This document shows, one piece after another, positions 1 to 31,428 of a stretch of DNA of 31,428 nucleotides. Each line of letters begins with the position of its first letter. Positions within the stretch are counted from its first letter, which is position 1. Below the pieces are notes generated by a model. That model had not been told where the DNA came from. It ran no database searches and saw only the letters and a list, made by a program, of their open reading frames with translations. Source of the DNA: a virus; IMG/VR virus record IMGVR_UViG_3300036671_000241, positions 1 through 31,428 of that record; one strand, 5' to 3'. Made by a program: the position numbers and the translations under genes.

Positions 1-422
1 CAACAAGACACTAACAGCACCGATTATCGCCACGATCAGCAACACCGGCACTTTGACCTTTCCAACATCAACGGACACGATCGTAGGAAGAGCAACCAGC
101 GATACTTTAACCAATAAGACTCTTACTGCCCCAATAGTCAATCTTGCCTTTAATGCACAGACTGGCACGACTTACACTCTCGTTGCTGGTGACTCAGGAA
201 AACTTGTAACTTCTTCCAACGGCTCAGCCGTCACAGTCACAATTCCTACTGGCGTATTTGCAGCAGGTGAGCAAATTAACATTCAATCAATCGGAGTCGG
301 ACTAACCACAATTTCAGGTGCTTCGGTCACTATTACTTCAACAGGTGCAAGTGCTATCGCGCCAATACTACGAGCAAGATACTCAGCAGCAACAATTATT
401 TGCACAGCGGCTGGAGTCTTTA
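1..422. repeat. Left copy of imperfect terminal direct repeat
   Basis: Aligned by eye with 31007-31428 at a constant offset of 31006 and without gaps. Positions 1-111 and 324-422 match exactly, and 28 substitutions lie between them (about 93% identity overall). In the tail-protein frame only three change an amino acid (Gln/Ser, Ile/Val, Ser/Ala). This looks like natural variation under purifying selection rather than sequencing error. It most likely marks closure of a circular map; a tandem paralogue is the alternative. Confidence 0.9.
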
Positions 423-1610: not shown

Positions 1611-1717
1611 AATCGCATAACGGGTGGCCTGCTAGTGATGATCGGGCTGAAATACCGATCAAGACTTTTACAGTAAAAGGAACCGACGTCGTTTATCTGC
1701 TGGAAGTAAACGAGTGA
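1607..1717 (+). CDS. 36-residue protein with M15-peptidase-like leader motif
   Basis: A very short gene held in place by 4-base overlaps at both ends (ATGA with the upstream gene, GTGA with the downstream gene). It reads MKSHNGWPASDD, then I-P-I-K-T-F-T-V-K-G-T, ending LLEVNE. From memory, N-G-W-P-A-S-x-D followed by I-x-x-F-x-V-x-G-T resembles the segment before the zinc-binding core of M15-type D-Ala-D-Ala carboxypeptidase endolysins of actinophages. Here the zinc site and the rest of the enzyme are missing. It may be a decayed lysin remnant or a small standalone protein. Confidence 0.5.
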   Translation: MKSHNGWPASDDRAEIPIKTFTVKGTDVVYLLEVNE

Positions 1718-1926
1718 CCGCGCAGGATTACGCAGCTCTGACCGTTTCACTTCTTAGCATCGGCGGAGCATTCATCGCGATGACCAGATGGCTCGTTAAG
1801 CATTATCTAGCAGAATTAAAACCAAACGGGGGATCCAGCGTGAAGGATCAAGTGAACCGATTGGAAACTAGATTAGATGAAGTTTATCGCCTGCTTCTTA
1901 ACAGCAATAACGATCGCAAGCCTTAG
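1714..1926 (+). CDS. Small membrane protein with C-terminal coiled coil (lysis cassette)
   Basis: A GTG start at 1714 overlaps the previous stop and has GGAAG about 7 bases upstream. The 70-residue product has one hydrophobic segment (about residues 8-27), a basic turn, then a charged helix with heptad-like pattern (VKDQVNRLETRLDEVYRLLL). The N-in membrane anchor plus coiled coil is the build of an i-spanin or of the small membrane proteins next to holins in actinophages. A lipoprotein gene overlaps its 3' end in another frame, as in Rz/Rz1 pairs. Function is inferred from position and architecture only. Confidence 0.65.
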   Translation: MTAQDYAALTVSLLSIGGAFIAMTRWLVKHYLAELKPNGGSSVKDQVNRLETRLDEVYRLLLNSNNDRKP

Positions 1927-2014
1927 CGGATGCGGATACCAGGGATGGGTTCGATATCCCTGCCAGGAGTATGAGAACTGGCAGAAACAAGAGTGCCAAT
2001 GGGCTAAAATCTAA
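1877..2014 (+). CDS. Overlapping 45-residue lipoprotein (Rz1-like position)
   Basis: This short gene starts inside 1714-1926 in a different frame and runs past it. It begins MKFIACFLTAITIASLSGC: a lysine, a hydrophobic core and a lipobox L-S-G-C with the lipidated cysteine at residue 19. The mature part, of about 27 residues, is aromatic- and cysteine-rich (GYQGWVRYPCQ, then ENWQKQECQW). Signal, lipobox and overlap with a membrane/coiled-coil gene before the endolysin are what an o-spanin gene looks like. An actinobacterial host lacks a classical outer membrane, so the role may differ, for example anchoring on the outer face of the cytoplasmic membrane. Confidence 0.7.
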   Translation: MKFIACFLTAITIASLSGCGYQGWVRYPCQEYENWQKQECQWAKI

Positions 2015-2040
2015 ACCTAAGCAGCAAGAAGGGGAAGCAA

Positions 2041-2550
2041 GTGAGTCAATTAAATAAGTTTCTAAAAGTAGCACAATTGGAACTGGGAAACATTGAAGGA
2101 CCAGCAGACAATCAAACCAAGTACCAGAAGGCAAACGTAGCCTGGTGCGGAGCATTCGTGAACTGGTGCGCAAAGCAAGCAGAGGTCAAGATTCCAAACT
2201 GCACATACACGCCAGCAGGAGCGACAGCATTCATGGACAAGAAGGCATGGACTGATGCAGAAGCAGCAGAACCACAGCCAGGAGATATCGTCTTCTTTGA
2301 CTTTCCCGGAGACGCGCTGGACCGCATTTCACACGTTGGAATCGTGATCAGCAATAACGGCAACGGCACAGTAACGACGATAGAAGGCAACACCAGCCCG
2401 GACAAGAAGGGCGATCAACGTAACGGCGGAGAAGTCTGCAAGAAGATACGCGCATATAAGAAGAAGAATCGCGGCAAGGTTCAACCATCCCTGCCAGTAT
2501 TTATCGTAGGATTTGGCCGCCCTAAATTTAAGGAGACAGCAAATGGATAA
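2041..2550 (+). CDS. CHAP-domain endolysin (cysteine peptidase/amidase)
   Basis: A 169-residue muralytic enzyme with a GTG start behind a GAAGGGGAAG ribosome site. The CHAP core is plain: N-x-A-W-C-G-A-F-V with catalytic Cys36, P-G-D-I-V-F-F-D-F at 80-88, S-H-V-G-I-V-I with catalytic His98, and I-E-G-N-T with the acidic/polar third residue at 115-117. CHAP enzymes cut peptide or amide bonds of peptidoglycan. No separate wall-binding repeat is visible; the basic C-terminus (RAYKKKNRGK) may help binding. No signal peptide is seen, so it should need the holin. Its stop lies inside the start region of the next gene. Confidence 0.9.
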   Translation: MSQLNKFLKVAQLELGNIEGPADNQTKYQKANVAWCGAFVNWCAKQAEVKIPNCTYTPAGATAFMDKKAWTDAEAAEPQPGDIVFFDFPGDALDRISHVGIVISNNGNGTVTTIEGNTSPDKKGDQRNGGEVCKKIRAYKKKNRGKVQPSLPVFIVGFGRPKFKETANG

Positions 2551-2737
2551 AGCAAAACTTGAAGCAATCGTAATGACATACCTGCGAGCAGGAGCAGCAG
2601 CAGTCGTAGCTCTTTATCTTGCAGATCCAAACCGCCCACTCAAGGAATATCTTGCAGCAGGAATCGCGGCCGTAGCAGGCCCGATCCTAAAGGCGATAGA
2701 TCCAAAGGCGATCGAGTTCGGACGCGGAGTAAAGTAG
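2543..2737 (+). CDS. Putative holin
   Basis: The start at 2543 is fixed by AAGGAGA 7-8 bases upstream; an earlier in-frame ATG at 2513 lies within the lysin and has no such site. The 64-residue protein has two Ala-rich hydrophobic stretches (about residues 9-23 and 31-46) joined by a turn DPNRPLKEY, and a charged C-terminus. Size, two potential membrane helices and position right after the endolysin fit a small holin. The second segment is only weakly hydrophobic, so a one-span topology is possible. Confidence 0.65.
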   Translation: MDKAKLEAIVMTYLRAGAAAVVALYLADPNRPLKEYLAAGIAAVAGPILKAIDPKAIEFGRGVK

Positions 2738-2740
2738 TCG

Positions 2741-3004
2741 ATGAATCGGGGGGAAATTCTTCAAGAAGCAGCCAGACTCACAGCCAAAGATCGCCAGAAG
2801 ACATACGGCGATCCAAGAACCAACCACTGCCGCATTGCAGACCTATGGTCGACATATCTCGTACACCAGATAAGCCCACAGCAAGTAGCAATCTGCATGG
2901 CGCTCGTTAAAGTTGCACGATTAATTGAAACAGAAACAGAAGACTCCTTCGTGGATTTAGCAGCATACGCAGCGATCGCCGGCGAGATTGCGACCGATCA
3001 ATGA
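2741..3004 (+). CDS. DUF6378-like phage protein
   Basis: An 87-residue protein opening with R-G-E-I-L-Q-E-A-A-R-L-T and containing K-D-R-Q-K-T-Y-G-D-P and a C-terminal D-S-F-V-D-L-A-A-Y-A helix. This is the pattern I recall for the DUF6378 family, widespread in phages and of unknown function. No catalytic residues can be named. It overlaps the first glycosyltransferase by 4 bases (ATGA at 3001), so it is the first gene of the sugar cassette by arrangement. Confidence 0.75.
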   Translation: MNRGEILQEAARLTAKDRQKTYGDPRTNHCRIADLWSTYLVHQISPQQVAICMALVKVARLIETETEDSFVDLAAYAAIAGEIATDQ

Positions 3005-3678
3005 GCGAGATGATTATCCTCGTACCAAGCAGAGGAAGACCCGGCAACGCCGTAGAATTACTGGCAGAGCACGAAAGACTTTCCACACATTCAGACCTTC
3101 TCTTCGTGATCGATGCAAACGATCCAGAGCACGATGCCTACGAATCCAAAGTCGGGGTAGACAAGTGCATAACGATTCAGAACGACACCAGGGGCATGGC
3201 TTATCCGATTAACAAGGCAGCCAGCGCGATCGTCAAAGAAAATAAATATAAATACTTCGCCTTCTTAGGCGATGACCACCGCCCACGCACAGCCGAGTGG
3301 GATCACCTTCTTATCCAGGCGATGCAGAAGCGGCCGTCAATGGCCTACGGCAACGATCTGCTTCAGAAGGAACGACTGCCCACGATGATAGCGATGACAA
3401 GCGACATCGTAAAAGCGCTCGATGGAATGGTTCCGCCAAAGATGAAGCATTTATACCTCGACAATTTCTGGAAGAAGCTAGGCCAGGATTTGAACACAAT
3501 CACATATCTCGATCACGTTATCGTTGAGCACATGCACCCGATTGCAGGCAAAGCGGAATGGGATGAGGGGTACAAGGAAGTCAACGCGGCCGAAATTTAC
3601 TCATTCGACGCGCTCGCTTACCAGAACTACATCCAGAGCGAAGCCTACGAATTGCTACGACGCAAACTCAATCCATGA
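3001..3678 (+). CDS. Glycosyltransferase, GT-A fold (sugar cassette gene 1)
   Basis: A 225-residue protein with the N-terminal strand of family-2-like glycosyltransferases (I-I-L-V-P-S-R-G-R-P-G-N). It then has a nucleotide-sugar type beta-alpha-beta region and F-A-F-L-G-D-D-H-R-P at 87-96, where the Asp-Asp-His replaces the usual metal-binding D-x-D. The C-terminal part holds conserved-looking aromatics and H-M-H-P. It should transfer a sugar from an NDP-sugar; the acceptor is unknown (virion protein, wall glycan or other). It has no membrane segment. It is coupled by 4-base overlaps to both neighbours. Confidence 0.75.
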   Translation: MSEMIILVPSRGRPGNAVELLAEHERLSTHSDLLFVIDANDPEHDAYESKVGVDKCITIQNDTRGMAYPINKAASAIVKENKYKYFAFLGDDHRPRTAEWDHLLIQAMQKRPSMAYGNDLLQKERLPTMIAMTSDIVKALDGMVPPKMKHLYLDNFWKKLGQDLNTITYLDHVIVEHMHPIAGKAEWDEGYKEVNAAEIYSFDALAYQNYIQSEAYELLRRKLNP

Positions 3679-4388
3679 AGCAGCTGATCGCCTTCTCACT
3701 CTACGGAAGCCAGGAGCGATACACGATCGGTGCGATCAAGAACGCAATTCTGGCCACGCGGCACTTTAAGGGATACACGCTCCGCTTTTACACCGGGGCC
3801 AGCGTTCCAGAATCCATCAAGCAAACCCTTCAACTCTTCCCCCACGTGCAGCTCGTAGACCAGGAAGGACCAGAGGATCACAGAGCCAAACTCTGGCGAT
3901 TTCAAGCATTGCAAGATCAGGAATTCGACGTCATTCTCAGCCGCGATGCAGATGCCAGGCTGACCCACAGAGAACGCATTGCACACGAAGAGTTTCTAGC
4001 AAGCGGCCTCAATTTCCACATTATGAAGGACCACCCCACAGGCCACAATTACCAGATCAGCGCCGGCATGTTTGCAGCTCGTACCAGCGCGATCCCGGCA
4101 GAGATTTCATGGCCAGCAGCGAAGGATTATTATATGCAGGATCAAGACTGGCTGGCGGCGACGATTTGGCCCTTGATCAAAGACAGCGCCCTGATCCACG
4201 ATGAGAGCTACCAAACCAAGCCAGAAGGACGCAGTAAGCGCCGCCCATTCCCGATCCGTAAACAGGCAAGCCTGCACCATATCGGGGCAGCCCTTGAAGC
4301 AGATGACCGCTTCCATTTCAGCATTGACCAGTCAACAGCGAAGGCCGAAACTGGCAGTGATAAATACATGGCAGAATGGCTAATATGA
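3675..4388 (+). CDS. Glycosyltransferase with D-x-D motif (sugar cassette gene 2)
   Basis: A 237-residue protein with N-terminal I-A-F-S-L-Y-G and F-D-V-I-L-S-R-D-A-D-A at about 84-94. The S-R-D-x-D string is the metal and nucleotide-sugar site of GT-A enzymes. H-N-Y-Q-I-S-A-G-M-F-A-A-R follows, where such enzymes contact the acceptor. It is unlike the preceding transferase in sequence, so the two probably add different sugars or act on different acceptors. Start and stop overlap the neighbours by 4 bases. Confidence 0.75.
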   Translation: MKQLIAFSLYGSQERYTIGAIKNAILATRHFKGYTLRFYTGASVPESIKQTLQLFPHVQLVDQEGPEDHRAKLWRFQALQDQEFDVILSRDADARLTHRERIAHEEFLASGLNFHIMKDHPTGHNYQISAGMFAARTSAIPAEISWPAAKDYYMQDQDWLAATIWPLIKDSALIHDESYQTKPEGRSKRRPFPIRKQASLHHIGAALEADDRFHFSIDQSTAKAETGSDKYMAEWLI

Positions 4389-5251
4389 AAATTCTTATAA
4401 CAGGAGATGCCGGCTTCGTAGGGCGAGCATTCCACCGAGCACTAGATGGCAAAGGCCATGACATCACTGGCATCGACATCGCAAACGGAATCGATTGCCG
4501 CGACTTCTTCAAGAAGGACGACACGAAGTACGACGTCGTCATTCACCTCGCGGCGATCGTCGGGGGCAGGGCCACGATTGAGGGGAACCCTTTGGCCGTT
4601 GCCAGCGACCTCGCCATCGACGCCGATATGTTTCAGTGGGCGATCAGGACTAAACCAGAGCGCGTCGTTTATTTCAGCAGCTCGGCGGCCTATCCGATTT
4701 ATTTGCAGCGAGCCGCTTATAAGCAACGACTCAACGAGCGAGACATCAACCTAGATCACATAAGAACGCCAGACTTCAGCTACGGATGGGCAAAGTTGAC
4801 CGGCGAAACTTTAGCCAGATACGCAAGGGCAGAGGGAATCAAAGTGACCGTCCTGCGCCCATTTAGCGGATACGGCAGCGACCAGGCGCTCGATTATCCA
4901 TTCCCATCGCTGATAGCACGCGGCAAGGCCAAACAGGATCCGTTCGAAGTGTGGGGAACAGGCCAGCAAGTTCGAGACTTTATCCACATCGACGACGTGG
5001 TCGCAGCTACATTCGTAGCAATCACAAACGACGTGCAGACTTTGAATCTTTGCACCGGCAGACCGACATCTTTCATACAGCTCGCAGAGATGATCATGCT
5101 TGCGCAGGGATATCTGGCCCCAATCAAGAAACACCCGGCCAAGCCCACAGGTGTGGAATACAGAGTCGGAGATCCAACCAGCATGCTGCGCATTTATGAA
5201 CCGAAGATCAGCCTCGAAGAAGGAATAGCCAGGGCGCTGAAGAATGCGTAA
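4385..5251 (+). CDS. NAD-dependent sugar epimerase/dehydratase (extended SDR)
   Basis: The start at 4385 is chosen because its ATG overlaps the previous TGA, as elsewhere here; 4376 would add only three residues. The 288-residue protein has the Rossmann motif G-D-A-G-F-V-G at 7-13, H-L-A-A at 54-57, a serine-rich S-S-S-A-A-Y at 98-103 and the catalytic Y-G-W-A-K at 133-137. R-D-F-I-H-I-D-D-V, typical of NDP-sugar epimerases, follows. It probably prepares the NDP-sugar used by the two transferases upstream. Substrate specificity cannot be read. It is the last plus-strand gene before the convergent terminator. Confidence 0.88.
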   Translation: MKILITGDAGFVGRAFHRALDGKGHDITGIDIANGIDCRDFFKKDDTKYDVVIHLAAIVGGRATIEGNPLAVASDLAIDADMFQWAIRTKPERVVYFSSSAAYPIYLQRAAYKQRLNERDINLDHIRTPDFSYGWAKLTGETLARYARAEGIKVTVLRPFSGYGSDQALDYPFPSLIARGKAKQDPFEVWGTGQQVRDFIHIDDVVAATFVAITNDVQTLNLCTGRPTSFIQLAEMIMLAQGYLAPIKKHPAKPTGVEYRVGDPTSMLRIYEPKISLEEGIARALKNA

Positions 5252-30671: not shown

Positions 30672-31428
30672 ATGGCAGGAGCAGGCTACAAGTTATTTGC
30701 AACAGGAGACGTGCTGACAGCAGCGCAAGTCAATACTTTTCTGATGCAGCAGACAGTGATGGTATTTGCCGACTCCACAGCTCGAACCACAGCCCTGACG
30801 GGCGTGCTTGCAGAAGGCATGGTTACATATCTCCAGGATACAAACGCCCTGGAAGTTTATGACGGATCCTCATTTATTGGAGCAACAGGCGACATCACCG
30901 GCCTCACCGCTAGCACAGGCATCACGATCACCAGTGCGACAGGACCAGTACCAACCATAGCGATCGATTCAACCGTTGCCACTTTAAACGGCAGCCAGAC
31001 TTTAACCAACAAGACACTAACAGCACCGATTATCGCCACGATCAGCAACACCGGCACTTTGACCTTTCCAACATCAACGGACACGATCGTAGGAAGAGCA
31101 ACCAGCGATACTTTAACTAATAAAACTCTTACTGCCCCGATAGTCAATCTTGCCTTTAACGCACAAACTGGAACAACATACACTTTAGTTGCTGGTGACT
31201 CAGGAAAACTTGTAACTTCTTCCAACGGCTCAGCAGTTACCGTAACAATTCCTACTGGCGTATTTGCAGCAGGTGAGTCTATAAATGTGCAATCAATTGG
31301 CGTTGGACTGACCACAATTTCAGGAGCAGCGGTCACTATTACTTCAACAGGTGCAAGTGCTATCGCGCCAATACTACGAGCAAGATACTCAGCAGCAACA
31401 ATTATTTGCACAGCGGCTGGAGTCTTTA
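30672..31428 (+). CDS. Tail fibre-like protein, N-terminal part (3' cut by window edge)
   Basis: AAGAAGGAGAAATC gives a strong start at 30672. It reads MAGAGYKLFATGDVLTAAQV, then M-V-T-Y-L-Q-D-T-N-A-L-E-V-Y-D-G-S-S-F, the N-terminal docking domain often seen in actinophage tail-tip genes. Two T-L-T-N-K-T-L-T-A-P units follow. From 31008 it matches the protein at 2-445 except for three residues. With a circular map it would end after V-I-G-D-I-A at 445, giving 259 residues. Confidence 0.8.
   Translation, partial: MAGAGYKLFATGDVLTAAQVNTFLMQQTVMVFADSTARTTALTGVLAEGMVTYLQDTNALEVYDGSSFIGATGDITGLTASTGITITSATGPVPTIAIDSTVATLNGSQTLTNKTLTAPIIATISNTGTLTFPTSTDTIVGRATSDTLTNKTLTAPIVNLAFNAQTGTTYTLVAGDSGKLVTSSNGSAVTVTIPTGVFAAGESINVQSIGVGLTTISGAAVTITSTGASAIAPILRARYSAATIICTAAGVF
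31007..31428. repeat. Right copy of imperfect terminal direct repeat
   Basis: It matches 1-422 without gaps, with 28 substitutions confined to the part corresponding to 112-323. Exact flanks of 111 and 99 bases surround the variable centre. See the left copy for interpretation. Confidence 0.9.

Follow-up and report, generated by a model that had tools for sequence, protein, structure and literature searches.

In overlapped two-component spanins of the lambda Rz/Rz1 type, a small lipoprotein with an LSGC-type lipobox starts out of frame within the gene of a single-transmembrane (TM) coiled-coil protein, close to the endolysin gene; published spanins cover 62–300 residues, with up to four cysteines in the o-spanin (PMC6139136). 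A second arrangement is that of LysF1a/LysF1b in the lysis cassette of the F1 mycobacteriophages, i.e. in actinophages, where a 1TM protein with a charged helical C-terminus, predicted to be N-out–C-in, accompanies an N-in–C-in 2TM protein (PMC13056207). A third is provided by the phages LanE43AprE7 and LanE43AprF5 (OX376640 and OX376641), which were cultured on ‘Ca. Planktophila’ and lyse their host (PMC10202952). The window, by which we mean the whole stretch of DNA analysed here (an IMG/VR virus record of 31,428 bp), shares its gene order with the first of these systems and genes with the third. Its cassette region (1714–2737) and one marker gene contain the following features.

1714–1926, plus strand: membrane protein of 70 aa with a GTG start, one N-terminal TM segment and then a predicted coiled coil (phrog_9869, function unknown, E 4e-12)
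1877–2014, plus strand: lipoprotein ORF of 45 aa with an ATG start and the lipobox LSGC, beginning MKFIACFLTAITIASLSGC, shortened by a deletion and in a different frame from the membrane gene
1877–1926, plus strand: 50-nt out-of-frame overlap between the C-terminus of the membrane protein and the signal peptide of the lipoprotein
1991–1998, plus strand: deletion junction GAGTGCCA, the one remaining copy of a direct repeat (291-bp repeat spacing in locus L085)
1999–2040, plus strand: 3′ remnant of a deleted 2TM gene of the phrog_25359 type, without a start codon (DNA alignment with L085, L086 and L088)
2041–2550, plus strand: endolysin of 169 aa, CHAP/NlpC-P60 type (PF05257, E 3e-13; PHROG endolysin families, E 5e-23)
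2543–2737, plus strand: small holin-like membrane protein of 64 aa, phrog_37724-like (43% identity to its counterpart in Planktophila phage AprF5)
7962–8426, plus strand: WhiB gene (PF02467, E 7e-14)

An earlier note on this DNA had described, within 1714–2014, a 45-residue lipoprotein ORF, its LSGC lipobox, its different frame, its overlap with the membrane gene and the endolysin just after it, and all of this holds, coordinates included. The note had also argued for an actinobacterial host on the strength of the WhiB gene. WhiB is regarded as an actinophage marker (PMC10202952), and together with the coiled-coil gene, which is common to the window and the cultured Planktophila phages, it makes the window phage very probably an actinophage. 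The coiled-coil homologue of these phages is 49% identical to that of the window. In OX376641, the one record from which gene order was read, it precedes an endolysin candidate and then a 61-aa homologue of the 64-aa holin-like gene. In the unannotated AprF5 record (OX376641) these three genes, with an endolysin candidate of 167 aa that has no Pfam match, lie at 4001–4910 (locus L324).

Three further observations concern the window as a whole. The WhiB ORF encodes a fusion, with PF02467 at residues 15–78 and a resolvase-type helix-turn-helix (PF02796) at residues 89–123. At 470–1335 on the plus strand, before the lysis cassette, a propeller-like unit of about 40 aa (DGITWTQRTLP...) is repeated in tandem about seven times. 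Finally, the two ends of the window (1–422 and 31007–31428) match each other in direct orientation, with 93.4% identity over 422 bp. They lie within a repeat-rich tail-fibre-like gene and are either repeats internal to a single gene family or a terminal redundancy whose copies have diverged.

The lipoprotein ORF is incomplete. Compared with its closest relative among the matches listed (L085, whose contig also carries L007), the window is shorter by exactly 291 bp. In L085, the 8-bp sequence GAGTGCCA occurs twice with a spacing of 291 bp, within the lipoprotein gene and again in the 3′ end of the gene that follows it; the window keeps a single copy. The deletion removed the C-terminal half of the lipoprotein (PPQC...GQCTKDLLPE), including two of the four conserved cysteines of the mature protein, and nearly all of the next gene, which encodes a two-TM protein of 94 aa (phrog_25359); no phrog_25359-like frame is present anywhere in the window. 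The ORF now ends in ...ECQWAKI: its N-terminal 41 or so residues are those of the family, and WAKI is an out-of-frame read of the tail of the deleted gene. The 45-residue lipoprotein of the earlier note is thus present as an ORF, although not as a natural length, as relatives have roughly 60–75 aa. We conclude with high confidence, as regards its anatomy, that it represents the N-terminal half of a widespread phage lipoprotein, left behind by a deletion. The deletion appears to be private to this phage, an assembly error being the less likely explanation. The junction sequence was found in none of the other IMG/VR viral contigs, as would be expected of an assembly or library chimera from a phage that really carries the full unit. 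Yet the junction falls exactly at an 8-bp direct repeat with 291-bp spacing, as is typical of genuine repeat-mediated deletion, the repeat is short for an assembly-graph error and relatives without the module are common, so we regard a chimera as highly unlikely.

From the window sequence alone, the lipoprotein ORF does not rise above chance: a lipobox-ORF scan gave one hit, compared with a mean of 0.67 and a maximum of three in 30 first-order Markov sequences of equal length. Comparison with relatives, on the other hand, shows the frame to be genuine. The cysteine at the lipobox position upstream of the RYxCQ core is missing in just one of 196 loci, a lipobox-like tetrapeptide, which o-spanins carry along with a signal peptide, is present across 138 distinct relatives (LSGC in the window), and the spacing of the four cysteines after the lipid-bearing one is identical in 135 of 138 distinct mature sequences. 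Outside the overlap the median dN/dS of the core is 0.13 (242 pairs, which are not independent), and this part of the protein is under purifying selection. Within the overlap, dN/dS is 0.7–1.2 and uninformative, and a signal-peptide-like hydrophobic alternative frame survives in some relatives that lack the module (L023, L026 and L030); conservation of the overlap therefore proves little by itself. The checks that the earlier note had proposed on lipobox and overlap turned up no refuting stops, lost cysteines or lost overlap among close relatives.

The family to which this lipoprotein belongs (core SGC-GYxG-RYxCQ-NW-C-PPxC-GxC-DL) is large, unnamed and widespread in freshwater phages. Two IMG/VR scans with a family alignment gave at least 581 and at least 588 confirmed stretches; such IMG/VR counts are samples, since the best 80 matches were examined and near-identical contigs recur. 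The mature part matched no named family in Pfam, PHROGs, NCBIfam or PADLOC, and no description of the family was found in the literature searched, which is not proof that none has been published. A scan of genome contigs returned just two phage-like contigs, both binned in MAGs, and 369 genomes of the class around the genome of L244 (a beta-proteobacterial MAG contig) gave no match beyond that genome itself. One family member, at 2828–3016 of MW202675 (L002), has no lipobox; a plain TM segment precedes its conserved RYPCQ domain. Several weaker matches were set aside: those to Rhizobium and Klebsiella phages with the short query are due to chance (E 3–8), the Rhizobium record that was checked being in the wrong reading frame; a match to LptM is confined to the signal peptide and below the cut-off; and PDB profile matches to antibody light chains and heliorhodopsin are due to chance.

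We then asked which neighbour the lipoprotein is inherited with. IMG/VR contains at least 592 relatives of the coiled-coil gene, and over a third of the best 80 carry the same overlapping lipoprotein. Seventy-five coiled-coil loci have 800 nt or more of downstream sequence; 28 of them carry both the lipoprotein and the 2TM gene and 47 carry neither, with no discordant case (Fisher p 3e-21, relatedness ignored); in the loci without the module, the endolysin directly follows the coiled-coil gene. The module state changes at least nine times on the gene tree. Independent pairs on well-supported branches were concordant in five cases out of five (sign test p 0.0625), a number too small for significance. 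The linkage extends well beyond these loci: the 2TM gene is nearby in 78 of 80 distant lipoprotein loci, the contigs of the other two stopping soon after the lipoprotein, and starting from the 2TM gene, where upstream DNA is available, a lipoprotein is found in 60 of 60 loci (58 by pattern and two by eye, RYECQLAENW variants). Both genes occur in the same four of 50,697 phage records, and in L007 the start codon of the 2TM gene lies inside the last codons of the lipoprotein gene (8-nt overlap). The upstream neighbours of the lipoprotein, on the other hand, differ (the coiled-coil gene, another TM/coiled-coil gene, a 60-aa TM gene or a holin-like gene). From this linkage we conclude with high confidence that the constant partner of the lipoprotein is the downstream 2TM protein, not the coiled-coil protein. 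In L164 (3962–5162), a GH25 lysozyme gene sits between the two, overlapping each by 4 nt. At either end of a 54-kb contig in a ‘Paceibacterota’ MAG (L245, G002:C142) there is a piece of the 2TM gene, so this contig is probably a circular phage genome that was binned wrongly.

The 2TM protein matches phrog_25359 (PHROGs v4), a family of unknown function that the literature searched links to no lipoprotein family, with E 3e-17 in DSL-LC01, 5e-13 in ct7L0027 and 9e-13 in L244. Its AlphaFold model consists of two helices (8–41 and 49–77; pLDDT 74), and in the alignment the most conserved residues fall in the short loop, F[VI]TQP-x-ND. Model and alignment together show the features of a class II holin (short, two TM helices, charged C-terminus). 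No significant match to a holin family was found in Pfam, PHROGs or NCBIfam, the best weak ones being Phage_holin_3_6 (E 0.02) and the phrog_9987 holin (E 0.07). The lipoprotein was modelled poorly, without a confident fold (AlphaFold pLDDT 73, pTM 0.34).

These results bear directly on the proposal of the earlier note that the membrane gene and the lipoprotein form a spanin-like pair, with the coiled-coil protein as i-spanin and the lipoprotein as o-spanin, acting either at the cytoplasmic membrane or on a host envelope of unusual type. The overlapping out-of-frame gene order, the conserved lipobox and the lysis cassette are all those of a spanin, and the external residues, about 45 + 27 in the window and 45 + 46 in relatives, sum to about 72–91, which lies inside the reported 62–300 (PMC6139136). 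External length and cysteine number, which are within published ranges (PMC6139136), were accordingly dropped as arguments against a spanin. So was topology as proof: all 74 of 74 coiled-coil homologues have no K/R before the TM segment and at least two just after it, from which the positive-inside rule predicts N-out/C-in instead of the N-in/C-out, periplasmic coiled coil of an i-spanin, but the true Rz of L244, inspected by eye, would come out wrongly under this rule as well. What speaks against the pair is its inheritance. The lipoprotein is missing from the 47 module-less coiled-coil loci, many distant loci have the lipoprotein without the coiled-coil gene, unrelated genes stand upstream of family members, and the copy in the window is a shortened remnant. 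Moreover, in L244 and L246 (MW202462), which have distant homologues, the gene immediately after the lipoprotein–2TM pair is an Rz (phrog_2466, E 2e-16; phrog_1327, E 1e-12; PF03245 above its cut-off in L244 only) that contains an embedded proline-rich lipoprotein of the Rz1 type. The lipoprotein family is thus not the spanin in these two phages, which bears on the family and not directly on the window. WhiB and the cultured relatives (PMC10202952) further point to a monoderm host, and both lipoprotein and 2TM gene are absent from OX376640 and OX376641. Co-occurrence, coexistence with Rz/Rz1 and absence from the cultured phages led us to reject the pair: the overlap is not supported as a spanin, a reading we now consider very improbable.

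What, then, might the intact unit do? Tentatively, and at somewhat less than an even chance, we favour an accessory lysis module, consisting of a holin-like 2TM effector and an antiholin-like lipoprotein regulator, that is inactivated in the window. The 2TM protein would reside in the cytoplasmic membrane, with a long predicted helix on either side of the conserved F[VI]TQP-x-ND loop, and probably N-in/C-in like class II holins. The lipoprotein would be exported and held on the outer face by its lipid anchor, probably with two disulfides; it could bind the 2TM protein at its short external loop and, as an external antiholin, modulate the timing of membrane opening or collapse. Because both proteins would act at the cytoplasmic membrane, the unit would suit monoderm and diderm hosts alike. 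The 2TM protein may nonetheless not be the holin, as the cassettes already have a separate holin-like gene. In the window phage the unit would be inactive, and lysis would proceed via the coiled-coil membrane protein, the CHAP endolysin and the 64-aa holin-like protein, a layout that matches the cultured Planktophila phages; since these lyse their host without the unit, it is dispensable for lysis in that lineage.

The position of the pair close to at least seven unrelated types of peptidoglycan enzyme (CHAP, GH25, VanY, transglycosylase, GH19, M23+LysM and M15) speaks for this lysis module. The main rival is superinfection exclusion, or receptor or injection blocking, by a surface lipoprotein and a small 2TM protein carried as accessory cargo in the late operon. 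It has analogues in the T5 Llp and phi80 Cor lipoproteins and in T4 Imm, and it fits the anatomy nearly as well as the lysis module: the lipoprotein is short and Cys-rich, the distribution is accessory, with its nine or more changes, and the phages concerned have different host types. The weak match to the Cor family is confined to the signal peptide, however (phrog_1119, E 0.019, residues 1–20 only), the mature protein being unmatched; the PADLOC search gave no match, and the constant position beside lysis genes of different types speaks against such cargo. We consider exclusion unlikely. The same accessory character, with conservation among phages that vary in size and probably in host, would also suit a general modifier of the host envelope, a moron-like lipoprotein pair separate from both lysis timing and exclusion; set against the strong synteny with endolysins, this seems distinctly unlikely. 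On the reading as a lysis module, it is possible rather than probable that an undescribed, obligate lipoprotein–2TM module sets lysis timing at the cytoplasmic membrane in phages whose hosts are monoderm Actinobacteria as well as in those of diderm bacteria, with a lipoprotein antiholin family new to the literature searched and the window phage as a natural knockout. Whatever its function, the lipoprotein family with its obligate partner marks an accessory module of the lysis region in abundant freshwater phages.

Among the described systems, the coiled-coil gene resembles LysF1b in layout, a likeness that may serve as a lead. In the excerpt of that source (PMC13056207), the genes of LysF1a and LysF1b follow one another without an intervening lipoprotein gene, whereas the window has lost its 2TM gene and its proteins are shorter. 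With regard to Rz/Rz1 (PMC6139136), the locus has the gene order but not the inheritance: the pair is not co-inherited, the obligate partner of the lipoprotein is the 2TM protein, homologues coexist with true Rz/Rz1 and the host is probably monoderm. An overlap that looks like Rz/Rz1 can thus be an accident of gene order, which calls for caution in annotating spanins in actinophages.
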